DNA of 24,268 nt from a virus, in IMG/VR virus record IMGVR_UViG_3300006072_000043, positions 1-24,268 of that record; one strand, 5' to 3'. The notes under the pieces are model-generated. The model was given only the letters and a program-made list of their open reading frames with translations. It was not told where the DNA came from and ran no database searches. Numbering within the stretch: position 1 is the stretch's first letter; every line of letters begins with the position of its first letter. The position numbers and the translations under genes are program-made. Positions 2-22,125 of the stretch are shown piece by piece.

Positions 2-367
2 ACAGTAAGAGGCTTACAGCAACATGTCATGGACAAATCACAGATCGTCCAATCAAGGCTTAAGACTACAAAGGCTGCAGAAGAGAAGCAACGCGGTGCA
101 CAGCAAGAAATTAACCATATCAATAAGCATGCAAGCTCATACGAGAACTTATTGAAGATGCATCAGCATATCCAAAAAGCAAAGAACGTATTGGTAAAGA
201 CATTGAACCAACATCCTGGAACTCTAAGCCATCACATTGAAGGTAAGGAGACACATCCAGAAGGCTATGTAGTTAACCATAAGAACGAACCAACAAAGCT
301 TGTAGATAGAGCTGAGTTTAGTCGTGCAAACTTAATGAGGAACCGTAAACCAAATGCTAACGTTTAA
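2..367 (+). CDS. C-terminal part of a phage protein (DUF6267-like), cut by the window start
   Basis: The reading frame is open to the first base of the window, so the ATG at 29 is probably internal and the true start lies upstream. The visible part is hydrophilic and rich in Lys, His and Gln. It ends with a segment containing PEGYVV and PTKLVDRAEFSRAN, which resembles the C-terminus of DUF6267-type proteins of T4-like marine phages; that is recall of the family, not a search. Function is unknown. It overlaps the next gene by 14 bases, as in a translationally coupled operon. Without the N-terminus I cannot tell whether it carries the capsid-targeting-like leader seen on its neighbours. Confidence 0.6.
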   Translation, partial: TVRGLQQHVMDKSQIVQSRLKTTKAAEEKQRGAQQEINHINKHASSYENLLKMHQHIQKAKNVLVKTLNQHPGTLSHHIEGKETHPEGYVVNHKNEPTKLVDRAEFSRANLMRNRKPNANV

Positions 368-629
368 AGAGTACCTTAAAGAAGACAAGTACAAGTCAGA
401 GACCGGTGGTTTAACCCGTGCTGGTGTAGATAAGTATAACAGAGAGAATCCTGGTCATCATTTAAAAATGGCTGTAACAACACCACCATCCAAACTTAAA
501 AAAGGTGGTAAGGCTGCAGGACGACGTAAGTCTTTCTGCGCTCGTATGGGTGGAGTTAAAGGTCCTATGAAGGATGAACATGGCAAACCAACAAGGAAGG
601 CATTAGCTTTAAGAAAATGGAATTGCTAA
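354..629 (+). CDS. Small basic phage protein (DUF6321-like) with a capsid-targeting-like N-terminus
   Basis: This 91-aa protein is Lys/Arg rich. Its middle and end (ETGGLTRAGVDKYN, KAAGRRKSFCARM, GPMKDEHGKPTRKALALRKW) match a small family common in T4-like phages that I know as DUF6321; its role is not known. The first ten residues, MLTFKEYLKE, have the same length and pattern as the T4 internal-protein capsid-targeting sequence MKTYQEFIAE, with L-x-E at residues 8-10. A GAGGAA stretch at 337-342 may serve as a distant ribosome site, or the gene may be coupled to the upstream frame that it overlaps. It overlaps the next gene by 13 bases. The two Cys residues (one in FCARM, one at the C-terminus) are the only ones. 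Confidence 0.75.
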   Translation: MLTFKEYLKEDKYKSETGGLTRAGVDKYNRENPGHHLKMAVTTPPSKLKKGGKAAGRRKSFCARMGGVKGPMKDEHGKPTRKALALRKWNC

Positions 630-1228
630 GTCTAAAAGATTTTATCACAGAGGATACTGGTGCTAAGCATCATGTATTGACTTATGGTCGTATGAACCCT
701 CCTACGACTGGTCATCTTTCACTTATCAAGAAGGTCCATGACGTGGCTGATAAACATGAAGCTGGTCATACAGTGGTGACATCACATAGCCATGATAAGA
801 AAAAGAACCCACTATCACCAGAGCAAAAGCTTAAACACCTTAAACGCTTCTCACCTAAGACAAACATTAAGGCATCATCTGCCGAGCATCCAACCATATT
901 ACACCATGCAGCTGATCTACATAAGAAAGGTGTAACTCACCTACATGTTGTGGTAGGATCAGATCGTAAGAAGGAGATGACGACGCTGTTAAATAGGTAT
1001 AATAACAAGAAAGCCGGACACGGGCATTATAACTTTAAGAAGATAACAGTACACTCTGCTGGTCATAGAGATCCAGATTCTGAGGGTACATCAGGCGTAT
1101 CAGGCACTAAACAAAGAGAGCATGCAAAATCAGGTAACTTCCATGAGTTTCGTAAGGGTGTACCAGAGCATGTATCAGATAAACATGCAAAAGAACTAAT
1201 GCATGACGTACAACAAGGGAGCAAGTAA
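617..1228 (+). CDS. HxGH-type nucleotidylyltransferase (PPAT/NMNAT-like fold)
   Basis: A 203-aa protein of the cytidylyltransferase/adenylyltransferase superfamily. It has the signature GRMNPPTTGH at residues 24-33 (the T-x-G-H form of the nucleotide-binding motif) and a second motif, GTKQR at 163-167, matching the S/G-T-x-x-R motif that contacts the triphosphate. VVVGSDR (111-117) fits the central strand. Enzymes of this fold transfer a nucleotidyl group from an NTP, for example to NMN or phosphopantetheine; the substrate here cannot be read from sequence. Proteins of this kind are frequent in T4-like marine phages. The N-terminus LSLKDFITE precedes the fold and ends in I-x-E at residue 12, like a T4 capsid-targeting leader. 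It overlaps the next gene by one base (TAATG). Confidence 0.85.
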   Translation: MELLSLKDFITEDTGAKHHVLTYGRMNPPTTGHLSLIKKVHDVADKHEAGHTVVTSHSHDKKKNPLSPEQKLKHLKRFSPKTNIKASSAEHPTILHHAADLHKKGVTHLHVVVGSDRKKEMTTLLNRYNNKKAGHGHYNFKKITVHSAGHRDPDSEGTSGVSGTKQREHAKSGNFHEFRKGVPEHVSDKHAKELMHDVQQGSK

Positions 1229-1849: not shown

Positions 1850-2449
1850 ATGAAGAATAAACCCAGCCCATTAGGCACTATATATTACATATATGCCTAT
1901 CTAAGTAAAAAAGGCATTCCTTACTATATTGGTAAGGGTAAAAACGATCGTGCGTATGAAACACACGGCCGAATTAAAGTGCCTAAAGACAAGAATAAAA
2001 TAATACTACTAGAAACTAATCTTACTGAGATTGGAGCTTTAGCTCTTGAACGTCGTATGATCCGTTGGTGGGGTCGTAAAGATCTTGGAACCGGGTTATT
2101 ATATAATATGACAGATGGTGGAGAAGGTACTAGCGGTATAATAGTTACTAAGTTAACAAGAGAAAAACAATCTAAAGCTAAATTAGGTAAAATTTATACT
2201 GAAAAACAAAGAACAAATATGTCTAATTCAGCTAAAGGCAAAATTATTGCTGAACAAACAAAACAGAAAATGTCAGAAGCTAAAAGAGGTAAATCATGCC
2301 CTTGGGTAAAAGGATCTCCACGTTCCGCAGAAACTAAAGCTAAAATATCTGCAGCATTTAAAGGAGTGCCAAGGTCTGAAGAAACTAAAGCTAAAATAGC
2401 AGCAACAATATTAAGCAAAAAACTGGCGACAAAAAATGAAGAACTATAG
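1850..2449 (+). CDS. GIY-YIG homing endonuclease with NUMOD3 DNA-binding repeats
   Basis: A 199-aa protein. The N-terminal GIY-YIG nuclease domain has IYYIY at residues 11-15, YYIGKG at 25-30, a likely catalytic Arg at 34 and a metal-binding Glu at 67 (ALERRM), followed by NMTDGGEG. From about residue 105 it carries repeated NUMOD3-type DNA-binding units (SKAKLGK, KMSEAKRGK, ETKAKISAAFKG, ETKAKIAA). It probably cuts a phage-genome site and spreads itself into unoccupied relatives. By hand count, 2161-2280 is about 27% GC, against about 49% for 2461-2580 in the next gene, so it looks recently acquired. Its last 14 bases overlap the start of the downstream gene. A late promoter lies just upstream. 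Confidence 0.9.
   Translation: MKNKPSPLGTIYYIYAYLSKKGIPYYIGKGKNDRAYETHGRIKVPKDKNKIILLETNLTEIGALALERRMIRWWGRKDLGTGLLYNMTDGGEGTSGIIVTKLTREKQSKAKLGKIYTEKQRTNMSNSAKGKIIAEQTKQKMSEAKRGKSCPWVKGSPRSAETKAKISAAFKGVPRSEETKAKIAATILSKKLATKNEEL
2330..2397 (+). repeat. Tandem NUMOD3 units with an exact 17-nt repeat
   Basis: The 17-mer gaaactaaagctaaaat occurs at 2330-2346 and again at 2381-2397, exactly 51 nt (17 codons) apart. It encodes the ETKAKI core of two successive NUMOD3 repeats, indicating tandem duplication of the DNA-binding unit. Confidence 0.8.
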
Positions 2450-4208
2450 ACAACTCATACGGGAATTGCCTTCTAAGACCGTCATCATGACAGTCGGAAG
2501 CTTTAACCCGCCTACCTCGGTCACTGAGATGACTCTTAAGCTAGTCCATAAGCTAGTTGAGTCAAACTCTGCCGACCACATAATCTATGTTACAGAAGAC
2601 AAGGATAGCCTACCAGTAGATCGTAAGCTACACTTCCTTGAGATGATGTTTGGTTCAATGAACTTTAAGGCATTGAACGAGTCAAACTTTGCTTCTGAAC
2701 TAACAGCTCTTAAGAAGAGGTACAAGGATGTCATCGTAGTTGCTTCAGAAGATAAAGCCAAGCTATACGAGTCAATGAACGTTGTCACCACAGGCAATGA
2801 CGTTGACTTCTCAAAGATCAAATCAATGGTCACCAAGGGTGACTTTACATCGTTTAAGAAACAACTGCCATCAATGGTACGTGAACTTGACGCTCGTAGG
2901 ATCATGAACGAGATGAGACAAGTCCAAGGTCTTGAACTAATCAAAGAAGATATCAAGTTCTCAGTAGACATACTTAGAGAGAAGTACTTTAAAGGTGAGA
3001 TCTACCATGTGGGTGACATCGTTGAGTCTGCTGGTCATCAGTACGAGATCATGGACCGTGGATCAAACTACCTAGTCGTAGTTGATAACACTGGCACCTT
3101 ACATAGGAAATGGGTGAAGGATGTGTCATTAGTAGAAGCTAAGTCCCTATCTAAAGCATGTTGGAAAGGCTACAAGGCTATCGGCCTTAAAAAGAAAAAT
3201 GGTAAGACAGTCCCTAACTGTGTGCCTGAGCAAGTAGAGGTCAACGAAGGTCATGAGATCTCCTACAAAGGCTACACGACAACTAATATGCATCATTGTC
3301 CACAAGGCTCAAAAGCCTTTAAACTAACTATGGACAAAGCTACAGATCCAGTTGCTATGTTAAATGCTATCAAGACAACTGATGCATACCTTAAGATCTA
3401 TGACTTCGACCCGTCCAAGCCAGAACTATATGGCTTTAAACATGTTAAGGATGCTCAAGAAGCTCATAAGAAGTCAAGAGAATCACTAGAGAAACTAGGA
3501 TGCTTTGATTCTCACAAAGAACATTGGGAAAAACATAAAGCCGAGCTTGATAAGATGACTATCAAGGAAGGCGTATCTAACACCTATAACATAGCTCAAG
3601 ACGTATTAAGATACTCTGACTTCATGAAACTACATAAGATGAACCAAGGCATCATACCTGATGACAAAGAGATCAAGCAAGTCTTAGACCCTAACATCTC
3701 ACAGCAGATCGATGATTTACAAAAGTACCCGTTCCATAAACATACCGAAGTTGGTCATACACTAGAGACAGATCGTCACCTACGTAGACGTAAAGTCATG
3801 TATGCTACTGAGTCTGTGATGACAAAGAACGAGACAGCAGGTGTACAGATCAAACCTGAACACGAAGCTGGTTACTACGTAAGATGTACAGCGTCAAACG
3901 ATATCTTATCTGGCCCTCATAAATCAAGAGGAGAAGCTGGAGCAGCTGGTAAGAAGTACGGTAAAGAATGCTACATCACAAAAGACGGCGAGTATACACA
4001 GGAGTCGGCAGACGGTGAAGTAGAAGGCCAAAAGGTTACTAAGGTTGTACCACTACCAGCTAATATGGCACCACCAGCAGATGATGAACCAAATAAACAA
4101 AAAGGCAAAGGCTTTAGTGCTTTCTTTGAAAAGAAGATTAAAAAAGAAAACCTTAATACTCTCCTAGATTATGATTCATGGATGAGACAGCAAACCGAGA
4201 GAAAATAA
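2436..4208 (+). CDS. Multidomain phage protein with a degenerate nucleotidylyltransferase domain and a capsid-targeting-like leader
   Basis: A 590-aa protein. It opens with MKNYRQLIRE, nearly superposable on the T4 capsid-targeting sequence MKTYQEFIAE, with I-x-E ending at residue 10. Residues ~15-180 resemble the nucleotidylyltransferase fold of the gene at 617 (VGSFNPPT), but SVTE stands where TTGH should be, so it is probably not catalytic in the usual way. An L-V-E|A site occurs at residue 234. It is followed by ACWKGYKAIG...NCVPE, a Cys-containing module I recall from other T4-like marine phages. The remainder is hydrophilic, with a basic C-terminus. The start lies within the end of the endonuclease gene. 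Function is unknown; packaged cargo is an inference. Confidence 0.7.
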   Translation: MKNYRQLIRELPSKTVIMTVGSFNPPTSVTEMTLKLVHKLVESNSADHIIYVTEDKDSLPVDRKLHFLEMMFGSMNFKALNESNFASELTALKKRYKDVIVVASEDKAKLYESMNVVTTGNDVDFSKIKSMVTKGDFTSFKKQLPSMVRELDARRIMNEMRQVQGLELIKEDIKFSVDILREKYFKGEIYHVGDIVESAGHQYEIMDRGSNYLVVVDNTGTLHRKWVKDVSLVEAKSLSKACWKGYKAIGLKKKNGKTVPNCVPEQVEVNEGHEISYKGYTTTNMHHCPQGSKAFKLTMDKATDPVAMLNAIKTTDAYLKIYDFDPSKPELYGFKHVKDAQEAHKKSRESLEKLGCFDSHKEHWEKHKAELDKMTIKEGVSNTYNIAQDVLRYSDFMKLHKMNQGIIPDDKEIKQVLDPNISQQIDDLQKYPFHKHTEVGHTLETDRHLRRRKVMYATESVMTKNETAGVQIKPEHEAGYYVRCTASNDILSGPHKSRGEAGAAGKKYGKECYITKDGEYTQESADGEVEGQKVTKVVPLPANMAPPADDEPNKQKGKGFSAFFEKKIKKENLNTLLDYDSWMRQQTERK

Positions 4209-4210
4209 AT

Positions 4211-4669
4211 ATGGAAAAGCTAATCGCTACGTTGAAGGTTGCATTGGGTAATACGTTTTGTATGTACTTCAAGAGTCATTCATACCATTGGAACGTGGAA
4301 GGGATGTTCTTTAGTCAGTACCATAAGTTCTTCCAAAAGATCTATGAAGACACCTATGGAGCTGTAGACCCATTTGCAGAGAACTTGCGTAAGCTTGATG
4401 TGTATGCACCTATCAGCCTTGAAGAGATCCATAGCTATAAGACTATAGAGGAAGATAAAGTTAAGCCTGAAAACATCAGTGAGATGTTAGTTAACTTACT
4501 ACATGCAAACACAGAGATACTACACGTATTGACAGAGCTATTTGATGATGCTACAAGAGAAAAACAACAAGGCCTTGCTAACTTTGTAGCAGACCGTATG
4601 GATAAACATAAGATGTGGGAATGGCAAATCCTCGCATCATTAAAACAAATTAAGAAACCCGGAGAATAA
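4211..4669 (+). CDS. dps: Dps-like ferritin-family protein (iron/DNA protection)
   Basis: A 152-aa protein of the Dps family, close to the usual length. Dps proteins form 12-subunit shells, oxidise Fe(II) with peroxide and store it, which limits oxidative damage. The family hallmark HSYHWNV is at residues 23-29, followed by H38, D53 and E57 in VDPFAENLRKL, then APISL. Aligned by spacing with E. coli Dps H51, H63, D78 and E82, these residues are kept, while the position of D67 is Gln (Q42). There is no basic N-terminal tail, so DNA binding through such a tail is not expected. The start at 4211 directly follows the upstream stop; an in-frame ATG at 4178 would only overlap that gene. With the heme oxygenase and NrdB downstream it suggests iron handling. 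Confidence 0.8.
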   Translation: MEKLIATLKVALGNTFCMYFKSHSYHWNVEGMFFSQYHKFFQKIYEDTYGAVDPFAENLRKLDVYAPISLEEIHSYKTIEEDKVKPENISEMLVNLLHANTEILHVLTELFDDATREKQQGLANFVADRMDKHKMWEWQILASLKQIKKPGE

Positions 4670-4671
4670 GA

Positions 4672-7395
4672 ATGAAGTCGTACAAAGACCTAACACAAAG
4701 ACTAGATGAGATCTTAACCAAGTCCACACCAGCTGGTAAGTGGATAGATGACTTTGTACACTCAGATAATCCTAAGTTTGCAGGTAAGTCTGCTGCAAAG
4801 CGTAAACAAATGGCACTCGCAGCATACTATTCTAAACAAAGAGAAGAGTCAGCTGCAGTATCACAAAATTCTACAGCAGAAGTTGACATGAGAGAAGCTA
4901 AAGAAGAGCATTTAGTACATGTATCTGATGGTTCTAAGTACGATGAACAACCACATGAAAAAGATGTAGAGCATGTCATGGCTGGTGTTAAACAACATGG
5001 TGGTGAACATGCAGGTGGATCTGATAAAGGTGTATTCTTTAAATTCCCATCAAAAGAACATGCACAAAACTTCATGCATCATGTTAATAAGTGTCCACAT
5101 AAATCATGTGATGCACACCTTTCAGAAGCTATTGAGTATAAAGGTATCGGTACAGATGTAGTTGACAAGAAAAAGGTTTTAAATCCTCCTATCCCTTTAA
5201 CACAAAAGAAAAAAGAAGTTAAAGATTTTAAAGAAGGATATGAACATGGCCCTATCGATCGTGATGCTAAAGTAGCAGTTGGTCATAAAGCTGCTGTATT
5301 AGCTGGTTCTGGTCTTGATTCTGGTAAACACGGCACAGTTGTTGGTTCATCAAAAGAACGTACTGGTGATATGTGGCATATTAAAACTGCTAGCGGTGAT
5401 ATAGTTAAGATGCACAAACATAGAGTAGCTAAATTAAAAGAAGAAGTTGAACAAATCGACGAGATCTCAAAGAAGACTTTAGGTTCTTATGTTAAGAAAG
5501 CTGAGAAGGAAGAAGATAAGTATCAACAAAACTATTCTAAACTCAGAGATATTAGAGACAAAACACATGGTAAATTCTCTGATGATACACCTGAAATGAA
5601 ACATCTTGATAAGAAGTATCTTAATCGTGCAGATGGTGTTTATAAAGCAAAACAAAAACTCGCTAAAGAAGACGTAGAGTTAGACGAATCTAAAGTATAC
5701 GATCCTATCACTAAGAAGATGGTCGCTACTAAACCAATTAAAGTACAAGCAGGTGGTGGTGCAACACGAAATGGAGTTCCAGTTGAAGGTGGCCCATCTA
5801 AGTATAAGACTATACGTCAAGCTTATGATGCTGCAACTGCAGGACAAACAGTTACACCTAAACAAAAATTAACTAAAGAAGAAGTAGTTAACCTTGACGA
5901 GTTAAAGAAGAGCACATACCAATCTTACAGAGATAAAGCTGCTAAGGACGTGAATCGTGCTTATGCTATCCATCAAAGCCCTTATAAGAAGACTGCTAAA
6001 GATGATATGCGTAAGCTATCAAATAGAGTTAAAGGTGATGAGCGTGCAGAGAGATCACTTAAAGAAGAGCAGATCGATGAAGCAAAATCTATTACATTTC
6101 ATGAACCTGCTAAATTTCATGATGCTGTAGATAAAGAATTGGATCATAACAAATCTAATTTTAATGTTAAAGTGATGTCACGCGATTTAAATCATATTAA
6201 AAATAATATTGATAAATCAGGTAAATTTCATGGACATGCAGATCATGTTGAACAAGCACAAAAATTTGCTAAAAGACATAAGTTAGCTCATACTATTGGT
6301 GAATCAGTACAGATCGATGAAGTATCTAAGTCAACACTTATGAGATACATTCCTAAAGCATCAAGAGATGTTGGTTCCCATACTTATGCAGGTAAAGAAG
6401 CTGGAGAATGGGCATCACACTATACAAGAGCTGGTGACTGGGAAGCTGCAGAGAAACACTCTAAGAAGTCTTATGCAGACTTTAAGAAAGCAAACAAACG
6501 TATCGCTGGTATTGACCGTGCTACTAAGAAGCTTGGCACACAAAAAGAAGAGGTAGAACATATCGAAGAAGCAACAGTGTCATCACGTAAGTATGATTGG
6601 GGTACAATGAAGACTGTTAACCACGGTAAATCATTCTCGATCCCACTACATCCTGAACACCATGAGCCAATCGCTAAGTTAAAACATGGTGAATCTCATT
6701 CATTTAAAGATGAGACAGGTCGTAAATGGAAAGCTACACGTGACAATGATACAGTACACTTCCATGGTGGTTCATATGGTACACAAAAGACATCTGTACC
6801 GCATAAATCATTAACAGAAGCCCATCATCATGATGGTATTCCAGGATCACAAGTTAAACCTAAAACCATGCAAGTTAAGACACAATCTAAAGTCATGAAG
6901 AAGGAAGAAGTTGAAGAGTCAAGAGGTCATAAAGTACTTGCTAACTTTTTTAAGAATAGAGAAGTTGCACAGAGAGCTTTTACAGGTCAAAACAACCCTG
7001 CTGATAAAGGCATAGAGACTCCTAAGAAGGATGCAGAACAAAAGAAAAAGATGATGGGTATGAAAGAAGGCTTCTTAACAAAGAACGTTGAGGACGATAT
7101 GAAAAACTTAGATAGCCTCAAATACTTTAAGAAGTATGGTAAACATAAATCTCAACATCGTAAGATGTTTGGTATCAGGACTGCAGACATAGAAAGAGTC
7201 GCAGAAGCAAACATGCCTACTGATGAAAAGTGGACAGACTATATGGGTAAGTCATTGACACATGCTCATGAGCTTCATAAACAACATGCAGCAGCAGAAC
7301 ATCCTGCAGAAAAAGCTGGCATTAAAGGCAAGATTTCAAAACATAACCAACGCATCATTGATGCCGCTAAAAAACTAAGAAGAGAGGGATATTAA
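4672..7395 (+). CDS. Long Lys/His-rich modular repeat protein, possible prohead-protease-cleaved polyprotein
   Basis: A 907-aa hydrophilic protein rich in Lys, His, Asp and Glu. It begins MKSYKDLTQRLDE with an L-x-E at residue 13, then a TPAGKWIDDFV...AAKRKQMALAAYYSK segment I recall from related phages. Modules of about 60-140 aa follow, divided by I/L-x-E sites after residues 152, 264, 339, 410, 470, 550, 633 and 716. Most of these sites sit in a K-E-E-V-E-Q-I-D-E-like linker, and three modules then start with a version of SKKTLGSYVKKA. In T4 the prohead protease gp21 cuts after (L/I)-x-E in internal head proteins, so ordered processing into peptides is plausible. No enzymatic domain is recognised. 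GGAG lies seven bases before the ATG. Confidence 0.75.
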   Translation: MKSYKDLTQRLDEILTKSTPAGKWIDDFVHSDNPKFAGKSAAKRKQMALAAYYSKQREESAAVSQNSTAEVDMREAKEEHLVHVSDGSKYDEQPHEKDVEHVMAGVKQHGGEHAGGSDKGVFFKFPSKEHAQNFMHHVNKCPHKSCDAHLSEAIEYKGIGTDVVDKKKVLNPPIPLTQKKKEVKDFKEGYEHGPIDRDAKVAVGHKAAVLAGSGLDSGKHGTVVGSSKERTGDMWHIKTASGDIVKMHKHRVAKLKEEVEQIDEISKKTLGSYVKKAEKEEDKYQQNYSKLRDIRDKTHGKFSDDTPEMKHLDKKYLNRADGVYKAKQKLAKEDVELDESKVYDPITKKMVATKPIKVQAGGGATRNGVPVEGGPSKYKTIRQAYDAATAGQTVTPKQKLTKEEVVNLDELKKSTYQSYRDKAAKDVNRAYAIHQSPYKKTAKDDMRKLSNRVKGDERAERSLKEEQIDEAKSITFHEPAKFHDAVDKELDHNKSNFNVKVMSRDLNHIKNNIDKSGKFHGHADHVEQAQKFAKRHKLAHTIGESVQIDEVSKSTLMRYIPKASRDVGSHTYAGKEAGEWASHYTRAGDWEAAEKHSKKSYADFKKANKRIAGIDRATKKLGTQKEEVEHIEEATVSSRKYDWGTMKTVNHGKSFSIPLHPEHHEPIAKLKHGESHSFKDETGRKWKATRDNDTVHFHGGSYGTQKTSVPHKSLTEAHHHDGIPGSQVKPKTMQVKTQSKVMKKEEVEESRGHKVLANFFKNREVAQRAFTGQNNPADKGIETPKKDAEQKKKMMGMKEGFLTKNVEDDMKNLDSLKYFKKYGKHKSQHRKMFGIRTADIERVAEANMPTDEKWTDYMGKSLTHAHELHKQHAAAEHPAEKAGIKGKISKHNQRIIDAAKKLRREGY

Positions 7396-7396
7396 T

Positions 7397-9979
7397 ATGT
7401 TAAAGTTCAATGATTTTTTAAAGGAAAATGTACAGCTCAATGAGGAGAATATTAAAGATTCTCATTGGAAACATGAACCTTTATCTACAAAGAGATCTGA
7501 TTATGATAGCGGTGCTGAACATGGTGAAGCTAAAGACATTAATAAATGGGCTCATGAGATCACTAAGCATAAAGAAAAAGCTGAAGCTGCAAAGAAAAAA
7601 GGTGACATGCATGCTTATCATAAACACATGGAGACTCATCATGATGAAGCACGAATTTTTCATCATGAATCAGAATCCGGTGAACATCACTTAAGTCCAG
7701 CTAATCAAGAAGAACATGGTTCATATTTTGGTCATGAAAGAGCATCTGAGTATCATAGATTAAAAGCTGAAAGATTAGAGAAAAAGCATGTTAAAGAATC
7801 TTGGTCTGCACAAGCTGGTAAAGCTAAGATGTCAGAGGCAGACGTAGACGAATCAGGTCTCCGTATGGCAGCTCATGCAGCTCATAAAGAGGGTAAGAAA
7901 GAGTTTGAGTTCCAAGGTAAAACATACCCTGTTAAAGTACAAAAAGAAGAAGTAGAACAGATCGATGAGTTATCAAAAGACACATTAGCATCATATACTA
8001 AGAAAGCTTCACATGATGCACGTATCAAACAACATGTAGCTGCAGACTTTAAGAGTAAAGCTGCACATGCAAGAAACCCAAGAAAGAAAGAAACATGGGA
8101 TAGTCTTGCTGGCAAATACCAATCTCAAGCATGGAAGCGTGAGAAAGGCCATGATAAAGCTGTTGACAAATTAAAAGAAGACGTTCAGTTAGATGAAGGT
8201 AAGATGAAAGAACTTGCTTATGACTTACAAAACATGGGTCATGACGAGTTCCATAAACACTATGGTCATCCTAAACATCATTACGATCCTACAAATTTCA
8301 AGAAGCCAGTAGAAAAAGGCCATGAAATGGATCGTGCTAAAGCTTTAGCTCAACGCGGCATGCAATCATTATCCAAAGAAGAAGTAGAACGCATCGAAGA
8401 GAAGTTAACACAGATCGATGAGTTATCTAATAAGACTTTAGGTAACTACGTTAAGAAAGCTTCATCAGATTTAGCATCGTCTATCCATAATGAGCGTGAT
8501 GCAGAAGAAAATGATGATGCTCCAGAAGCATCAGAGCATGGTCGTCGTGCTTCTAACAGGATGTCAGGTTTAGAAAGAGCTGGCAAGAAGATTGCTAAAG
8601 AAGAAGTAGAATTAGAAGAAGCTACTACACGTAAAGACTTCCAAATGGTTGCTGATCTTATTAAAGGTCACGAATCTGCAGAGAAACGTAAAGAACTTGC
8701 TACACATCATGCAGGTATCTTCGCTAAACAAAACCCACGCTTCGATCATGCTAAGTTCATGAAAGCAGCTGGTGTTAACGAAGGCGAAATGTGTGAGGAC
8801 GAAATGCGTTTTCCTAAAGACGGTTGGTCTAAAAATGATTCAATGGCTAAACCAGTAAAATCTTCAGATGCAATGAAACAACACTCACATTACTTTAGTA
8901 AAGTTACTAAGTTAGATCCTAAGACTGGTAACCCTGTTAAAGAAGAAGTTTCACAAGAGATATCACCATACCTTAAAGCTACACTACAAGTTATGGATGA
9001 AGGTAAGATCGATGAAGGCAAGATGAAAGACATCTATACTGACATGATGGATCATGCTACCAAGAAGGGTTACTCAAGTCATAAACAGTTTACACCTACA
9101 GATTATGAGACAGTTGGTAAACAACATGGTATCTCAGGTAAAGAACTTGCTATTGTTGCCGGTCATAAGACTGCACAACAAGCAGATACTCACTTCAAGA
9201 AACCAGTAGAACCTGGTAAAGGTATGGATCGTGCTAAAGCTTTAGCTCAACGTGGTATGCAATCATTATCTAAAGAAGAAGTAGAACGCATCGAAGAAAA
9301 GTTAACACAGATTGATGAATTATCTAAAAAGACTTTAGGTTCATATGCTCATAAAGCTACGGATGATGCTCAAGATAAAGCACATGATGCATATGATAGT
9401 GGAACACCTACAAGACATGAACTTGAAATTCAAGGTGGAAAAAATAATCAAGGAAAATATGGTCATAAACCACTTCAAAATAGATTAACAGGTTTAGCAA
9501 GAGCTTCTAAAAAGCTAGGTGATAAGGGCATTGGTAAGGATGTTGAAAAGTCAGTAGCTCATCATCTTAAACAAAGATATCATTATGATAATATGGATGA
9601 TGGAAAAGCTTCTCGATCTGATGATGCTGCATTACGTCAATCAAGCAAAGCTCATGAGAAAATTCATAAAGCTTCTGGTGTTAAAGAAGAAGTTTCACAA
9701 GAAATGTCTCCATACGTTAAAGGTACTTTAGCAGTTATGGATGAAGGTAAGATCGATGACTTAAGAGACGCTCAGAAGTTAAGACAAGCTAGTCAATCAG
9801 CGTATGATCCTAAGTTTAAACCAGATACAAGCCATCCGCATATCAATCTAGTTAAAGGTACAGCGTATGGTGGTGCTAATCAAAAAGATGATGAGACTGA
9901 TGAGAAACCTGATGATGAAACAAAAGAGAAACGCGGACGTGGCAGACCAGCGGGATCTAAGTCAGGTGCTAGAGTATAA
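7397..9979 (+). CDS. Second Lys/His-rich modular repeat protein ending in an AT-hook
   Basis: An 860-aa protein built like its upstream neighbour and probably an old duplicate of the same architecture. It begins MLKFNDFLKE, a capsid-targeting-like leader ending in L-x-E at residue 10. I/L/M-x-E sites follow after residues 191, 267, 342, 408, 535, 540, 641 and 783. Three modules start with LSKKTLGSY-like sequence. Several end with a GL-x-RA-x-KK helix before the linker. One 153-nt block is duplicated in frame (residues ~301-351 and ~600-650). The C-terminus contains RGRGRPAGSK (846-855), a canonical AT-hook that binds the minor groove of AT-rich DNA. A packaged, DNA-associated head protein is my favoured reading; no enzyme motif is seen. 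Its stop codon lies within a late promoter. Confidence 0.75.
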   Translation: MLKFNDFLKENVQLNEENIKDSHWKHEPLSTKRSDYDSGAEHGEAKDINKWAHEITKHKEKAEAAKKKGDMHAYHKHMETHHDEARIFHHESESGEHHLSPANQEEHGSYFGHERASEYHRLKAERLEKKHVKESWSAQAGKAKMSEADVDESGLRMAAHAAHKEGKKEFEFQGKTYPVKVQKEEVEQIDELSKDTLASYTKKASHDARIKQHVAADFKSKAAHARNPRKKETWDSLAGKYQSQAWKREKGHDKAVDKLKEDVQLDEGKMKELAYDLQNMGHDEFHKHYGHPKHHYDPTNFKKPVEKGHEMDRAKALAQRGMQSLSKEEVERIEEKLTQIDELSNKTLGNYVKKASSDLASSIHNERDAEENDDAPEASEHGRRASNRMSGLERAGKKIAKEEVELEEATTRKDFQMVADLIKGHESAEKRKELATHHAGIFAKQNPRFDHAKFMKAAGVNEGEMCEDEMRFPKDGWSKNDSMAKPVKSSDAMKQHSHYFSKVTKLDPKTGNPVKEEVSQEISPYLKATLQVMDEGKIDEGKMKDIYTDMMDHATKKGYSSHKQFTPTDYETVGKQHGISGKELAIVAGHKTAQQADTHFKKPVEPGKGMDRAKALAQRGMQSLSKEEVERIEEKLTQIDELSKKTLGSYAHKATDDAQDKAHDAYDSGTPTRHELEIQGGKNNQGKYGHKPLQNRLTGLARASKKLGDKGIGKDVEKSVAHHLKQRYHYDNMDDGKASRSDDAALRQSSKAHEKIHKASGVKEEVSQEMSPYVKGTLAVMDEGKIDDLRDAQKLRQASQSAYDPKFKPDTSHPHINLVKGTAYGGANQKDDETDEKPDDETKEKRGRGRPAGSKSGARV
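8297..8449 (+). repeat. In-frame 153-nt direct repeat, copy 1
   Basis: The segment encodes FKKPVEKG, MDRAKALAQRGMQSLSKEEV and TQIDELS modules and is nearly identical to 9194-9346. Differences are mostly at third codon positions, so the peptide is under selection or the copy is fairly young. Confidence 0.85.
9194..9346 (+). repeat. In-frame 153-nt direct repeat, copy 2
   Basis: Same length and reading frame as 8297-8449, 897 nt (299 codons) downstream in the same gene. It includes the same predicted I-D-E cleavage site. Confidence 0.85.
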
Positions 9980-10007: not shown

Positions 10008-10952
10008 ATGGCTTTATGGGGAAATCACGACAATCAGGCTTCAAAGCCTAAGTATGTCGCAAGGATTGCGTACTTTAACAGTGCAACGACTGTTAATACT
10101 ACAGCAGAAACAATAGATTTAACGGGTGCAAACACTGACTTCGCTAAGGGCGACGGTGTTGTATATTCAATCAATGGTGGTACAGTCATCGGTGGCTTAA
10201 CAGACGGTAAAACTTACTATGTAGGTCTTACAGCTACATCAGGTATTATCAGTCTTTATGATACACAAGCTAATGCTATCGCGGGTGGTGCTACAGGTAA
10301 AGTTAACTTAACAGGTGCTGGTGTTGGCGTTCAAACACTACAACGTACTGGTGAAGCTAACGTTAATGACCATAACTACAACGGTAGAGGTTTATACTTC
10401 GAAGACGTAGACGAAGCTTCAAACGCTGAAAACCGTGGTCGTGGTCTTAAGACACCAGGTTGGGTTGAGTATGTATCATATACAGACTCTAACGGTAACG
10501 TACGTCATAAATCAGAGATCTTAATAGCTATGGGCTCAGCACAAACACAATCAGTAACAGGTGATGCTAACCCAGCTAAAGGTGCTTCTGGTGCAACAGG
10601 TACAGCTGACGATTCAGTATTACTTGATGCTACTACAATCATTACTGCACAACCGGTTAACGCTACAGCTGCAGCAAATGCTGGAGTTGATGCATTATTC
10701 ACAGTAACTTCTGCTGCAACTGGTGCTTATAATAGCTTAACATACCAATGGCAACAAAGTACTGATGGTGGTACTACATGGACTAACATCAGCGGTGCAG
10801 CATGGAAGGGCTATAATACTAATACATTAGGTATTAATTCTGGCCATCTAGCTGTAGGTGATACTGGTATGAAGATCCGTGTAATCTGTGGTACTGATAC
10901 AGCTAATACAAATGCTATCTCTAACGCAGTAACATTAACAGTAACAGCTTAA
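10008..10952 (+). CDS. Virion structural protein with a C-terminal Ig-like domain
   Basis: A 314-aa protein, Gly/Ala/Thr rich and poor in Lys and Cys, as is typical of virion surface proteins. The opening MALWGNHDN and a central GWVEYVSYTD...EILIAMGS segment resemble a structural protein found in T4-like marine phages. Residues ~35-115 look like a beta-rich domain (YYVGLTATSG). Residues ~209-314 form an Ig-like beta sandwich with a central YQWQQSTDGG-TW and the final strand AVTLTVTA. Such domains decorate phage heads and tails and can bind host glycans (T4 Hoc is the known comparison). Its own late promoter, an AAGGAG site and an intrinsic terminator point to abundant expression. Which virion part it belongs to cannot be told. 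Confidence 0.75.
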   Translation: MALWGNHDNQASKPKYVARIAYFNSATTVNTTAETIDLTGANTDFAKGDGVVYSINGGTVIGGLTDGKTYYVGLTATSGIISLYDTQANAIAGGATGKVNLTGAGVGVQTLQRTGEANVNDHNYNGRGLYFEDVDEASNAENRGRGLKTPGWVEYVSYTDSNGNVRHKSEILIAMGSAQTQSVTGDANPAKGASGATGTADDSVLLDATTIITAQPVNATAAANAGVDALFTVTSAATGAYNSLTYQWQQSTDGGTTWTNISGAAWKGYNTNTLGINSGHLAVGDTGMKIRVICGTDTANTNAISNAVTLTVTA

Positions 10953-12551: not shown

Positions 12552-12924
12552 TTTCGAACAATTAGAACGTATAGTTGAGAAGCTTGATTTATCGATAGAT
12601 AAGCTTACTGAAGTTAGTAATAATGTTAGTAAACTATTAGCTGTACATGATACAAGAATAAATGTCATAGAGAAAGATACTGTGCGTAACGAAGACGACA
12701 TAAGAGACATACACGTAAAGATAGATAACATAGCTAAAGAGATCAATAAGAAGCTAGACCAGTCTATGGCTAACAGCATAGAAGGTCATGCTAAGATCCA
12801 ATCTGCTATAGAAGAGAAGCTTAAAGGCATCGATGCTCGTGTTAAAGTCCTTGAAGTATGGCGCTGGGTAGTCATCGGCGGAGCTGTTGTTATTGGTTGG
12901 TTGATTAATAAAACTTTCAAATGA
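12541..12924 (+). CDS. Coiled-coil protein with a C-terminal membrane anchor (XhlA-like, possible holin component)
   Basis: A 127-aa protein. Residues ~1-105 are heptad-like helices (LERIVEKLDLSIDKL, IDNIAKEINKKLD, IDARVKVLEVWRW). They are followed by one membrane segment (VVIGGAVVIGWLI) and a short basic end, NKTFK. This layout matches XhlA-type haemolysin/holin-associated proteins and similar small proteins of T4-like phages. Its position directly after the spanin pair, overlapping it by 11 bases, supports a lysis role. I cannot exclude a virion or scaffold role. It overlaps the next gene by four bases (ATGA). Confidence 0.6.
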   Translation: MANDFEQLERIVEKLDLSIDKLTEVSNNVSKLLAVHDTRINVIEKDTVRNEDDIRDIHVKIDNIAKEINKKLDQSMANSIEGHAKIQSAIEEKLKGIDARVKVLEVWRWVVIGGAVVIGWLINKTFK

Positions 12925-13637
12925 AATACGCTCAGTACATATCAGAGTTAAAACTTCAACTACAGTACCATACCGAACTAAACCCAAAACTCTGGAACGA
13001 ATACCAACTAAAGCCTGAAGTAAGAGCCAAGCTACTTCAGTTTGCAGAAGCATGGAGAGAATTTGCTAAGATCCCTAAAAGTGCAGTTAAAGAAGTTATC
13101 ATGCTCGGCGGCAACGCCAACTACAACTATACTGATCTATCTGATATTGATGTTCACTTGGTTGTTAATAAGTCCGAGATTGCCAAAGATAACCCATTAC
13201 TAGACGACTACTTACAAGATAAGAAAGTCATGTGGACTATGGCCCATAAGATCACCATCCTTGGATATGGTCTTGAGCCTTATGCACAAGATGAGTCAGT
13301 AGCATACCCTAAAGACCAAGGTGTCTATTCATTGACAAAGGATGAATGGATCGCCAAGCCAGAATTCATTGGTGATGATTTCCTAAAGAACCCATACCTT
13401 AAGAAGAAGATTAAGTTCTATATGGATATGATCGATGATATGATCAAGAACAAGATGGATGTAGAAGCATTCAATAACCTCAAGGATAAACTAAGAGACA
13501 TGAGAGGCGCTGCCATCCTAAAAGGTGGTGAATTCTCATTCGAGAACCTAGTGTTTAAGGAACTACGTAATCAAGGTTACTTAGACAAGATGGCTCGATA
13601 CAAAAAAGATGTACAGGATCAAGCCCTGTCGTTATAA
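12921..13637 (+). CDS. Pol-beta superfamily nucleotidyltransferase
   Basis: A 238-aa protein with the superfamily signature MLGGNANYNYTDLSDIDVHL at residues 61-80. The G-G/S motif is followed by D75-x-D77, which would bind the two metals; a later Asp or Glu would complete the triad. Enzymes of this fold add NMP groups to RNA, antibiotics or proteins, and the substrate here cannot be read. Related predicted nucleotidyltransferases occur in T4-like marine phages. The N-terminus MKYAQYISE resembles a one-residue-shorter version of the T4 capsid-targeting sequence and ends in I-x-E, so packaging in the head is conceivable. The start overlaps the upstream stop (ATGA). A late promoter overlaps its own stop codon. 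Confidence 0.75.
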   Translation: MKYAQYISELKLQLQYHTELNPKLWNEYQLKPEVRAKLLQFAEAWREFAKIPKSAVKEVIMLGGNANYNYTDLSDIDVHLVVNKSEIAKDNPLLDDYLQDKKVMWTMAHKITILGYGLEPYAQDESVAYPKDQGVYSLTKDEWIAKPEFIGDDFLKNPYLKKKIKFYMDMIDDMIKNKMDVEAFNNLKDKLRDMRGAAILKGGEFSFENLVFKELRNQGYLDKMARYKKDVQDQALSL

Positions 13638-19231: not shown

Positions 19232-20671
19232 ATGGCAATAGAAAATTTTAGTAAGTTCATAGACTATAAAAATAAGAAGTATGTAAAGTTTGATGGTAGG
19301 AAGATCTTGATCTTAGGTTATGGATCTGTAGGTCAAGCGATCTTACCAATAATCCTTAGACACATCACATCTGAAGCATCTAACATTATAGTGCTTGAGA
19401 AGGGTGAGAACGAAAAAACTTTTAAAGAACGTAATGGTAAGTCTGCAGTCACATACATTAAGAAAGAGATCTTAAGGAATAACTTAGAATCTACACTATC
19501 AAAGTATGTAGATGAAGGTGGGTTTGTTATCGATGTATCACTAAACATCGGTGCACTTGAGATCCTTGAATGGTGTTTAAAACATGGTGTTCATTACATC
19601 AATACATCTCTTGAAAGATGGGAAGATGAACCAGACGAGACTATCCCTAAACTAGCAGAACGTACACTATACCATACTCATAAAGAAGTTCGTGCTATGG
19701 CAGAGAAGTACAAAGGTGCAGCAACGGTTGTTGGAACTCATGGTGCAAACCCTGGTTTGGTGACACACCTTACTAAGAGAGCGTTACTCAAGTTAGCAGA
19801 AAAGAAAGGCATCAAGTATGTAGTACCAACCGATAAAGAAGGTTGGGCACAGTTGATGAAGAAGGTTGGTGTTAAGGTAGTACATGTTGCAGAACGTGAC
19901 ACACAAGTCCTTGGTGAACCAAAAGAAAAGAATGAGTTTGTAAATACATGGTCATGTGAAGGTTTTTGGGCAGAAGGTAGAGCTCCCGCTGAGATGGGTT
20001 GGGGTACACACGAAGATACTAACCCAGAGAATGGTAAAGCACAAGGTAACACTGCATACCTATTCCAACCCGGTGTATCAGTGTTACTAAGATCATGGGT
20101 TCCATTAGGTGGTCAATACAATGGCTTCCATATCCAACACTCAGAAGCTGTAACGATATCAGAATACTTTGAAACTAAAGATAAATCGTTTAGGCCATCA
20201 GTATACTACGTCTATCAACCATGTGATGCAGCTATCGCTTCAGTACATGAGATGAGAGGTAAAGAGTTAGATCTACATACTAAACTACGCATCGCTAAGG
20301 ATGAGATCGTGGGTGGTATGGATGAATTAGGTGTGCTATTATTGGGGGATGACTTTGGTATGTGGCACGGTTCACAGTTAACTATCGAGGAAGCAAGGAG
20401 ACTAATACCAGGAGAGAACGCTACATCATTACAGGTTGTTGCATCAATGTTAGGTGCAATGATATGGGCAATAGAGAATCCTAATGAAGGTTATGTGGAG
20501 CCAGAAGCAATACCATATGACTTCGTATTGAAGTATGCTGACCCATATCTAGGTAAAGTCCCATTCGTCGAGACAAAATGGACACCATTCAAAGATGTCA
20601 ACAGTTTATTCTACAGAGAGTTGGATCCAAAAAATCCATGTGCTTACGAAAACTATAGGGTCTGGACATAA
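19232..20671 (+). CDS. hss: Homospermidine synthase
   Basis: A 479-aa protein, the usual length of bacterial homospermidine synthase (~475-480). It shows the NAD-binding GYGSVG at residues 29-34, VGTHGANPGLVTH near 168-179, GWGTHED, GFHIQHSEA, YVYQPCDAA and GSQLTIEEARRL, plus NATSLQVVASMLGAMIWAIENP, all characteristic of the bacterial enzyme in the saccharopine dehydrogenase-like superfamily. The enzyme joins two putrescines (or spermidine plus putrescine) by an NAD-dependent aminobutyl transfer to give homospermidine. In a phage this is an auxiliary metabolic gene. Polyamines neutralise packaged DNA in T4, which suggests a purpose. It starts 33 nt after nrdA with a GGG-containing leader. Confidence 0.92.
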   Translation: MAIENFSKFIDYKNKKYVKFDGRKILILGYGSVGQAILPIILRHITSEASNIIVLEKGENEKTFKERNGKSAVTYIKKEILRNNLESTLSKYVDEGGFVIDVSLNIGALEILEWCLKHGVHYINTSLERWEDEPDETIPKLAERTLYHTHKEVRAMAEKYKGAATVVGTHGANPGLVTHLTKRALLKLAEKKGIKYVVPTDKEGWAQLMKKVGVKVVHVAERDTQVLGEPKEKNEFVNTWSCEGFWAEGRAPAEMGWGTHEDTNPENGKAQGNTAYLFQPGVSVLLRSWVPLGGQYNGFHIQHSEAVTISEYFETKDKSFRPSVYYVYQPCDAAIASVHEMRGKELDLHTKLRIAKDEIVGGMDELGVLLLGDDFGMWHGSQLTIEEARRLIPGENATSLQVVASMLGAMIWAIENPNEGYVEPEAIPYDFVLKYADPYLGKVPFVETKWTPFKDVNSLFYRELDPKNPCAYENYRVWT

Positions 20672-20672
20672 C

Positions 20673-20870
20673 ATGCATATCGAAGGAATGATTAAAAGAT
20701 TAAAAGATGCTGGACGTAATATCTTTTTAGCAACAAACAATGCAGCATCTTTAAAGAAGAAGTACGTTGAACCTCATGTCTTTGTGAGGATTGATGGTAA
20801 GAAAGTGAAGATCAAAGACATAACAGTAAGTGAGTGTAATATATATTTAGAAACCGAGGACAATAAATGA
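20673..20870 (+). CDS. Small hypothetical protein
   Basis: A 65-aa basic protein starting one base after the synthase stop. The start is chosen because in-frame upstream ATGs lie inside the synthase gene. It has a helix (MIKRLKDAG), NIFLATNNAASLKKKYV and a final beta-rich part (VFVRIDGKKVKIKDITV, NIYLETED). No function is recognised. It overlaps the nuclease gene by four bases (ATGA), and its last codons supply that gene's GAGGA ribosome site. Confidence 0.6.
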   Translation: MHIEGMIKRLKDAGRNIFLATNNAASLKKKYVEPHVFVRIDGKKVKIKDITVSECNIYLETEDNK

Positions 20871-21583
20871 AAAAGATTATAGCAGCATTATTTTTTGCAT
20901 CAGCAACAACAGCAGCATTTGCAGGTTTAAAAGACTGCAGTCAGTTTGAAGCAGCATTACCAACATATACAGCAAAAGCAGGTGACCAAGAGTTATGTCA
21001 TTTAAACTATGCAGTAATCCATCGTTGTGATGTTAAAGCTCCAGAAGCAGTGTTTGAGCATTTAACAAAAGCAGCAATCAGTGGACCAGCAAAACGTAAA
21101 GATAATTTTCACCCTGATGCATTAGTAACACCTAACTGTTCAGCATCCCTAGCTGACTATGCTATCGTTGGTAAAACACATGACCGCGGTCATATGGCAC
21201 CAGCAGGTAACAACACACAGAGCGATGCGATCATGAGTGAGAGTTTTAACTTATCAAACATGGTTCCACAAGTAGCTAACAACAATCGTGGTATTTGGAA
21301 ACAAGCAGAAACATATGAACGTCAATGGGTTGCAACACCAAACACAGACTTCTATGTTATCTCTGGTGGTATTTGGGATCAAGGTTATCAAAAGATCGGT
21401 AGTGGTTTAGGTATCCCTACTCGTTTATATAAGATCGTTTATGAAAAGAATAGTAAGAAAGTTACTGCATGGTTAATGCCAAACGCTGCATTACCCGTTA
21501 AAGACTTGCCTAAGTATCAAACAACTGTACCAGCAATCGAGCAAGCAACTGGTATTAAGTTTAACTTACCAATCGCTAAGTAA
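20867..21583 (+). CDS. Secreted non-specific DNA/RNA endonuclease (NucA/EndoG-type, beta-beta-alpha-metal)
   Basis: A 238-aa protein with a clear Sec signal peptide (KK, then IIAALFFASATTAAFA, probable cleavage after Ala19). The catalytic signature DRGHMAPAGNN is at residues 106-116 (general base H109), and SFNLSNMVPQ...NNNRGIW near 126-144 includes the Asn/Gln metal-site region. Such enzymes cut DNA and RNA without sequence specificity. The signal peptide places it in the periplasm or outside, so it should not attack cytoplasmic phage DNA. It could degrade DNA in the periplasm (host, competing phage) or release nucleotides. It is tightly coupled to neighbours on both sides by ATGA and TAATG junctions. 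Confidence 0.92.
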   Translation: MKKIIAALFFASATTAAFAGLKDCSQFEAALPTYTAKAGDQELCHLNYAVIHRCDVKAPEAVFEHLTKAAISGPAKRKDNFHPDALVTPNCSASLADYAIVGKTHDRGHMAPAGNNTQSDAIMSESFNLSNMVPQVANNNRGIWKQAETYERQWVATPNTDFYVISGGIWDQGYQKIGSGLGIPTRLYKIVYEKNSKKVTAWLMPNAALPVKDLPKYQTTVPAIEQATGIKFNLPIAK

Positions 21584-22125
21584 TGGCAACGATACTTACA
21601 GAACATACTCGAGCAAAACACAAAGAGGTCGAAGGATCTGATTTTGTCCAGTATATGTTCACTGGTAAGATAACTAAGGAACACTATCTTACATACCTTC
21701 AACAGATGTGGCATATATACTCTACACTAGAAGCATGCGCTACAGTTCATGGGCTGTTTGAAGGTATGGAAGACCTTAGACGTACTCATAAGATATCACT
21801 TGATATTGCAGAGTTAGGTGGAACTATCGTGGCACCTTATATAAGTACAAAGAATTACATGTTTCATCTATTATCTTTAGCTGATAGTCGACCAGACCAG
21901 ATCATGGCTCATGTATATGTAAGACATATGGGTGATTTATACGGTGGTAAGATGATAGGTAAGTTAGTACCAGGACCCAGTCATGCTTATGCATTTGAAG
22001 ATAGACCTGCATGCATTGCATACATAGACTCTAAGTTAAGTATAGATCTATTAGACGAAGCAATAGCAGGATTTGATCATTGTATGAATTTATTTAACGA
22101 ACTAAAGAAAGAGTTGAACATCTAA
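21583..22125 (+). CDS. ho1: Heme oxygenase (biliverdin-producing)
   Basis: A 180-aa protein of the heme oxygenase family. The proximal heme-ligand region is HTRAKHKEVE, with H13 in the expected place. YLTYLQQMWHIYSTLE follows. The distal-helix signature VRHMGDLYGGKMIG corresponds to R-Y-L-G-D-L-S-G-G of known enzymes. It opens heme to biliverdin, CO and Fe(II), using electrons from ferredoxin or a similar donor. Cyanophages carry ho1 with bilin reductases to make phycobilins, but no such reductase is in this window. The gene overlaps nrdB by one base (TAATG), so the released iron could serve the NrdB diiron site; that is an inference. Confidence 0.92.
   Translation: MATILTEHTRAKHKEVEGSDFVQYMFTGKITKEHYLTYLQQMWHIYSTLEACATVHGLFEGMEDLRRTHKISLDIAELGGTIVAPYISTKNYMFHLLSLADSRPDQIMAHVYVRHMGDLYGGKMIGKLVPGPSHAYAFEDRPACIAYIDSKLSIDLLDEAIAGFDHCMNLFNELKKELNI

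Follow-up and report, generated by a model that had tools for sequence, protein, structure and literature searches.

Why should a phage string many small modules together into two giant protein chains? The question is raised by two adjoining open reading frames (ORFs) in positions 1 to 24,268 of the IMG/VR virus record IMGVR_UViG_3300006072_000043 (the window, that is, the whole stretch of 24,268 bases that was analysed). Both ORFs were found on the plus strand where the original prediction had placed them, at 4672-7395 (907 residues, P907) and, adjoining it, at 7397-9979 (860 residues, P860). Judged from their sequences, P907 and P860 are probably polyproteins of internal head proteins that are matured by the prohead protease gp21. 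This reading is preferred because it most simply explains the N-termini that resemble capsid-targeting sequences (CTS, or tags), the hydrophobic-x-E sites at module borders, the interchange of modules with stand-alone tagged proteins, and the avoidance of the motif within one module type.

The entire window matches, at 100% identity, a segment of a viral contig of 160,126 bases (G003). This contig encodes a Peptidase_S77 (gp21-type) prohead protease at 101452-101910 (E-value 1.7e-35), and its gp20, gp21 and gp23 candidates match the same loci as gp20, gp21 and gp23 of T4. For these reasons, G003 is a T4-superfamily phage. The two proteins were divided into the following parts, where a slash marks a predicted cut.

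4672-4710 (+): P907 residues 1-13, MKSYKDLTQRLDE/, CTS-like N-terminus ending L-D-E
4711-4896 (+): P907 14-75, TPAGxW / NPKFAGKS type, M-R-E at its end
4897-5127 (+): P907 76-152, HLVHV module, mixed strand and helix, L-S-E at its end
5128-5463 (+): P907 153-264, EYKG and HGPID modules, KEEVEQIDE/ at the end
5464-5688 (+): P907 265-339, ISKKTLGSY type, ELDE/ at its end
5689-5901 (+): P907 340-410, KVYDP module, NLDE/ at its end
5902-6081 (+): P907 411-470, LKKSTYQSY type, QIDE/ at its end
6082-6321 (+): P907 471-550, QIDE/ at its end
6322-6570 (+): P907 551-633, VSKSTLMRY type, HIEE/ at its end
6571-6819 (+): P907 634-716, RKYDWG module, beta-rich, L-T-E/ at its end
6820-7392 (+): P907 717-907, C-terminal part, GHKVL module and others
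7397-7426 (+): P860 1-10, MLKFNDFLKE/, T4-like CTS
7427-7837 (+): P860 11-147, helical His-rich module, M-S-E at its end
7838-7969 (+): P860 148-191, KEEVEQIDE/ at its end
7970-8197 (+): P860 192-267, LSKDTLASY module, VQLDE/ at its end
8198-8422 (+): P860 268-342, GKMKELAYDL module, TQIDE/ at its end, overlapping a 147-bp duplicate
8423-8620 (+): P860 343-408, LSNKTLGNY module, ELEE/ at its end
8621-9001 (+): P860 409-535, VMDE/ at its end
9002-9016 (+): P860 536-540, GKIDE/, a short second site
9017-9319 (+): P860 541-641, GKMKDIYT module, TQIDE/ at its end
9320-9745 (+): P860 642-783, LSKKTLGSY module and what follows, VMDE/ at the end
9746-9976 (+): P860 784-860, C-terminal GKIDDLRDAQ module

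Apart from the N-termini and one 5-residue piece, the pieces from the chosen cuts are 44-191 residues long, where 60-140 had been proposed. Each protein contains 55 His residues. After trimming of the acidic last 12 residues, 9 out of 10 P907 modules and 6 out of 10 P860 pieces were net positive, and the charge of the modules matches that of DNA-associated proteins only in part. Pfam gave no domain above its own cut-off in either protein, and NCBIfam gave no match. AlphaFold models built from 5-row alignments were poor (mean predicted local distance difference test score, pLDDT, 41.4 and 52.7 for the two proteins), with local values of about 54-78 at P907 residues 81-150 and up to 77 in module 634-716. 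A fold search of the PDB with the P860 model alone returned nothing at E < 0.001. Two stretches of 147 bp, 8297-8443 and 9194-9340, both inside the P860 gene, were found to be 89% identical, which is likely the result of module copying.

All 18 of the previously listed I/L/M-x-E sites, nine in each protein, were found. P907 has further I/L-x-E sites ending at residues 257, 465 and 544 and M-x-E sites ending at 75 and 799, and P860 has further [ILM]-x-E sites ending at 16, 147, 261, 272, 335, 467 and 634. We compared the number of sites with shuffled sequences. For [IL]-x-E, P907 has 12 against 5.8 expected (P 0.0085 with residue shuffles, 0.018 with dipeptide-preserving shuffles) and P860 has 11 against 7.0 (P 0.08 and 0.055, respectively). 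The predicted excess over chance therefore holds at about twofold in P907 but is borderline in P860. With M included, the counts were 14 against 7.7 in P907 (P 0.0115) and 16 against 9.5 in P860 (P 0.021), and for [ILM][DE]E they were 7 against 1.1 and 10 against 1.7. The motifs [IL]E, [IL]..E, [IL]...E and [IL]-x-D were not enriched over shuffles in either protein. Across the 143 other G003 ORFs of at least 100 residues, [IL]-x-E occurs at 1.13 times expectation, and part of the excess in the giant proteins is therefore ordinary; [ILMVF]-x-E occurs at 1.16 times expectation in the other ORFs. Density alone makes a weak case, and the striking feature of the sites is their position.

We searched IMG/VR for a linker followed by a module of the LSKKTL family and found at least 374 related stretches. 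From these, 79 loci were kept, and locus counts refer to the matches listed. One of the two search patterns included the site, and selection therefore accounts for part of its conservation among the loci retrieved. Of 78 loci (all except L021, the window's own phage), 69 have in their flanks a homologue of a marker gene from G003, the markers being head, tail, primase, nrdA or neighbouring genes. In a phage collection, whole-protein tblastn with the giant proteins gave no match, nor did one query with a single module. Short LSKKTL queries matched Cr30, P-TIM68, S-SKS1, P-RSM6, BUCT-ZZ01 and one marine fragment, with further weaker matches at E-values of 0.8 to 5 that were left aside.

Module order was found to be shuffled among the homologues. 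In L001, P907 is 98% identical, yet the P860 homologue is differently composed, while in L009 and L010 a single ORF of 1207 residues fuses homologues of both giant proteins and keeps an internal MINFKDYLKE/A. In local alignments of P907 and P860 with 68 other modular proteins, 73% and 74% of the alignment starts, respectively, fell between -12 and +1 of the P1' residue of a site, against 16% (P 0.009) and 14% (P 0.012) with rotated sites. This speaks for module borders at the sites. Most sites do lie at module borders as proposed, but not all, since the P860 site ending at 272 sits within a module. The residue following the site is A, G, S or V only in part of the cases, L and I being common there too.

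At 118 LSKKTL junctions (120 matches minus 2 unrelated sequences), P1 was always Glu and P3 was I in 69, L in 37, V in 10 and M in 2. V at P3, also used by relatives, extends the T4 rule (L/I)-x-E. The KVYDP module is preceded by ELDE/, TIDE/ or ELEE/ in 5 distinct contexts among the matches listed, and in Cr30, whose modular protein starts MRSKILAE/ISKKTL, the linker bodies differ (SENLNE, SEEMINE, EELDE) while hydrophobic-x-E persists. In a pool of ten module anchors, [ILMVF]-x-E precedes 44 out of 47 and [ILM]-x-E 28 out of 47, which serves as illustration only, as 10 out of 22 anchors were picked and offsets were set after the sites had been seen. Some other anchors, such as CWxGY and HGPID, do not begin at a site.

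In the most telling test, short proteins headed by a CTS were set against larger ORFs in which the same module is internal. From 441 junction alignments, 351 were filtered out. The 90 kept span at least 25 columns and start at most 4 residues from the tag and no fewer than 45 residues inside the larger ORF. In the larger ORF, an [ILMVF]-x-E site was found within 2 residues of the equivalent of the mature N-terminus in 32 out of 52 rows, and exactly there in 14. Random positions in the same proteins gave 11.7% (within 2 residues) and 2.7% (exact), control positions 10-25 residues away gave 5.7%, and none of nine control motifs exceeded 13 out of 52. The 52 rows repeat some junctions. With one row per junction, the numbers were 22 out of 36 within 2 residues and 12 out of 36 exact, compared with 10 out of 36 for the best control motif; these 36 do not repeat junctions but are still not independent. 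For example, the stand-alone MIGFKAFISE/ATYKGKKVSL corresponds to the internal DSMDE/ATYQGRKVPL, and MKKFNEFINE/VKEPTGDLKK corresponds to QIDE/VEKATGGLKD and KMQE/VKEPTGDLKK.

LSKKTL is the one module family with clear borders, and its start and end were anchored without requiring the motif inside. Its 57 non-redundant interiors (2,961 residues) contain no [ILMVF]-x-E against 16.1 expected, and with one interior per locus (53) there are again none against 14.4 expected. A hydrophobic residue at -2 was found for 0 out of 130 interior Glu, although I, L, M, V and F make up 15.7% of the residues there. This family was chosen after a cruder test had come out negative.

The start of P860, MLKFNDFLKE/, fits the strict T4-style CTS, as in MKTYQEFIAE/A of T4 internal proteins (IP) IPII and IPIII. 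The tag of P907, MKSYKDLTQRLDE/, is a longer variant of 13 residues outside the strict form; in the relatives L004, L083 and L009 its residues vary while I-N-E/ is kept. The strict CTS is present in 5 out of 204 G003 ORFs from a simple in-house ORF caller, against 0.11 expected (0 out of 2000 shuffles reach 5), and all five are within one 12-kb cluster at 49-61 kb. Looser versions occur in neighbours, including 617-1228 and 12921-13637. The first 10 residues of T4 IPIII are reported to be enough for packaging, and gp21 to cut after L/I-X-E (PMC9026906). Among 66 modular proteins that start inside their contig (ORFs from the first ATG, both giant proteins counted), 36 have [ILMVF]-x-E in the first 14 residues, against 10.0 expected.

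In the relatives, modular ORFs are also found in the head operon. The flanks of 16 loci contain both gp20 and gp21. A module-pattern ORF is present in 14 of these, and in all 14 testable loci it is located between the portal gene gp20 and the protease gene gp21 (the pairs L041/L045 and L056/L058 look near-identical). In T4, this interval is occupied by genes 67 and 68. An ORF of BUCT-ZZ01 between portal and protease contains the module, as does a gp22-type scaffold in L059 (4698-5864; phrog_237, E-value 1.4e-74). Peptidase_S77 was found in 8 out of 16 records searched, namely in 8 out of 8 above 100 kb (G003 included) and in 0 out of 8 of 13-76 kb. Capsid proteins were obtained from 9 out of 18 loci examined (8 with LSKKTL modules, and S-CREM2), and each has L-x-E between residues 53 and 71, which carries little weight, as this mature start was picked among several motifs by analogy with T4.

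Virion data are available for S-CREM2, a cultured cyanophage that likewise has cytidylyltransferase, primase and nrdA genes, in that order. Mass spectrometry of its virions detected gp154 with 3 peptides, gp156 with 6 and gp160 with 7 (PMC10665884). Of these, gp154 is a cytidylyltransferase headed MKNFSSFLTE/, gp156 starts MKKLISE/ and is a homologue of the product of 12921-13637, and gp160 (297 residues, without an LSKKTL module) has two modules, CWPGY and DACYHK, preceded by NLEE/ and EISE/. The authors note that such virion proteins may be cell carry-over, and the virion section and Table 3 of that paper report no semi-specific peptides (PMC10665884). The N-terminal part of gp160 (L103 12343-13236) resembles the major capsid family phrog_696 (E-value 4.8e-10), and gp160 shares GFTGAAAP with S-CREM2's own capsid protein.

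In the proposed mechanism, a single N-terminal CTS would direct the entire chain into the core of the prohead, where a gp21-type protease would remove the tag and cut the linkers after hydrophobic-x-E. About ten small modules would be freed per chain, and at least some would remain with the DNA until ejection into the next host, like the T4 internal proteins. We infer the cutting, the retention of the pieces and the roles of the modules from the sequences. The weakest step is that pieces stay inside the head; part of them may be lost from it, as happens to most core fragments of T4 (PMC9026906). The original prediction of precursors for about nine packaged peptides is supported as to cutting at borders by a T4-type protease, because the same genome encodes such a protease, the starts are CTS-like, and border sites, interchange, avoidance and the gp20-gp21 position in relatives agree with it; the nine packaged peptides stay hypothetical. 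The chances appear even that this is a true head polyprotein strategy of T4-superfamily phages, in which one tag brings a swappable cassette of about ten proteins, set free in equimolar amounts within the closed prohead, and injected proteins are gained, lost or reshuffled by inserting a module together with its own hydrophobic-x-E linker. In RNA viruses, polyproteins processed by a virus-encoded protease are well known.

Other explanations would place the same sites in a different context. P907 and P860 could be prohead core or scaffold proteins like gp67, gp68 and gp22, whose gp21-cut pieces are mostly expelled and are not packaged effectors. The modular ORFs of 14 out of 14 testable relatives in the place of T4 67 and 68, the module within a gp22-type scaffold, and the exit of most T4 core fragments from the head (PMC9026906) are consistent with this. 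However, scaffolds are dense in sites (16 [IL]-x-E in 269 residues of T4 gp22, 18 [ILM]-x-E in 348 residues of G003 gp22), whereas the giant proteins carry just 14 [ILM]-x-E in 907 and 16 in 860 residues, mostly at or near borders, and their modules would therefore survive cutting. The motif avoidance in LSKKTL interiors and the small modular protein detected in S-CREM2 virions, where contamination is possible, also argue against a scaffold role, which we regard as unlikely. There is a similarly small chance that the chains are packaged uncut, like strung beads, with the acidic linkers serving as flexible joints and recombination seams and I/L-x-E being merely a conserved linker part. The linker is indeed conserved over about 8 residues, beyond P3 and P1, modules are shuffled among relatives, and the virion RNA polymerase of N4 is a known example of a large protein that is packaged intact (PMC5512222). 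This would leave unexplained the match of internal borders to the mature N-termini of stand-alone tagged proteins, the persistence of hydrophobic-x-E behind different linker bodies, the absence of the motif in LSKKTL interiors, and the tag. It is very improbable that the sites are a functionless by-product of E-rich composition: the borderline density in P860 and the negative cruder depletion test would fit, but the spacing-specific enrichment, the position tests and the module avoidance do not.

Several results weigh against gp21-matured polyproteins. The [IL]-x-E density of P860 is only borderline (P 0.08). No site was found at 14 out of the 36 merged junctions, and for the window's own stand-alone module (354-629) a site lies within 2 residues at 0 out of 5 junctions. 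The cruder depletion test, in which all residues except residues 1-20 and the E-[ED]-[VAFIT] linkers were taken as interior, showed no depletion of [IL]-x-E in 70 proteins (187 against 163 expected) or in the two window proteins (9 against 8.0 expected); linkers that went unrecognised may, we suspect, have entered this interior count. Alignment ends show no preference for sites (10% for each giant protein), and the AlphaFold models are too poor for a structural check of module borders. V at P3 in 10 out of 118 LSKKTL junctions goes beyond the strict T4 rule, and both giant proteins lie outside the gp20-gp21 interval. Among the 66 modular proteins, 30 have no [ILMVF]-x-E in the first 14 residues, and just 10 fit the aromatic T4-like tag form.

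Known systems resemble P907 and P860 in part. T4 IPI, IPII and IPIII share with them a short N-terminal tag ending I/L-x-E, a gp21-type protease and small mature proteins. Mature IPI* has 76 residues, is injected and inhibits a restriction enzyme, and in the internal proteins of T-even phages, which vary, the CTS alone is conserved (PMC3012670). In contrast to the separate T4 genes with one N-terminal site each, each giant protein has about ten modules, one tag and internal sites in between. The [IL]-x-E count is 1 in each T4 internal protein compared with 12 in P907 and 11 in P860, and the giant proteins would therefore work like T4 internal proteins rather than be such proteins. T4 gp67, gp68 and gp22 share their operon interval with the modular ORFs of 14 relatives and are described as being cut by gp21 into several fragments that mostly leave the head (PMC9026906), but the dense sites of gp22 differ from the sparse [IL]-x-E of the giant proteins (12 in 907 and 11 in 860 residues), mostly at borders. 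Polyvalent proteins likewise have many domains per chain and are thought to be packaged and injected, and P1 DdrB is processed before packaging; as described there, they have recognised enzymatic domains and sometimes their own peptidase, unlike P907 and P860 (PMC5512222). The head proteins of phiKZ and SPN3US are processed by a prohead protease at several sites each with a short x-x-E motif (S/A-X-E in phiKZ), but according to these accounts long propeptides are cut up and removed and no module chain is retained (PMC5694885, PMC10052503, PMC9026906).

Among the papers listed by literature searches, for some searches the best 10-20 matches, and with subscription journals mostly outside the coverage, no title or abstract opening describes such head polyproteins. 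To that extent, the tailed-phage literature describes the cutting of propeptides and scaffolds rather than the freeing of a packaged protein set from one chain. If the polyprotein reading is correct, hydrophobic-x-E predicts borders in many modular phage proteins now called hypothetical (at least 374 related stretches), and every module is a candidate injected protein. It would also suggest how injected proteins could be exchanged in evolution by a simple path, and a tool in which several cargo proteins are chained behind a single tag.

Other genes of the window that carry tags or belong to the head are as follows.

2-367 (+): C-terminal part of a 396-residue DUF6267 protein; the full G003 copy starts MISFSQYLTE/
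354-629 (+): stand-alone CTS protein, MLTFKEYLKE/ and DUF6321
617-1228 (+): CTS-like MELLSLKDFITE/ and a cytidylyltransferase-like domain
2436-4208 (+): CTS MKNYRQLIRE/, cytidylyltransferase-like part, CWKGY module and further parts, 590 residues
10008-10952 (+): phrog_613, a family of head proteins, immediately downstream of P860
12921-13637 (+): MKYAQYISE/ protein, phrog_36119; nucleotidyltransferase match weak, below the Pfam cut-off

The DUF6321 domain of 354-629 is also found inside ORFs of 279-1316 residues in 5 relatives. In Cr30, a protein with a start (MGLWGKN) similar to that of the 10008-10952 product directly follows the modular protein. Amid the tagged genes, 4178-4669 encodes a ferritin-like protein (Pfam Ferritin, E-value 2.1e-18; phrog_3636, 'DNA binding protein') whose start is not CTS-like and which has homologues in 16 out of 79 loci.

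As 36 of the 66 modular proteins have an N-terminal site, other N-termini exist among them. Starts that are not T4-like (MFNDKILKSVAEAV, MFTKKL, MKTEDIK) were observed in L046, L055, L057, L060, L092, L062, L066, L027 and L051; a different targeting sequence and a different fate are candidate readings. An EF-hand-like segment, GxQHKIDKNKNGKVDAHDF, which presumably binds calcium, recurs as a module directly after a tag or linker in L037, L039, L046, L079, L095 and others.

Further downstream in the window, 19232-20671 encodes a saccharopine-dehydrogenase-type enzyme of 479 residues (Pfam E-values 1e-24 and 2.4e-23, without a PHROG match), which we take to resemble homospermidine synthase and which may possibly act in phage polyamine synthesis. 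A DNA/RNA non-specific endonuclease (Pfam E-value 2.4e-37), with a start that looks like a signal peptide by eye, is encoded at 20867-21583, and a heme oxygenase (Pfam E-value 9.7e-18) at 21583-22125, adjoining a ribonucleotide reductase gene.

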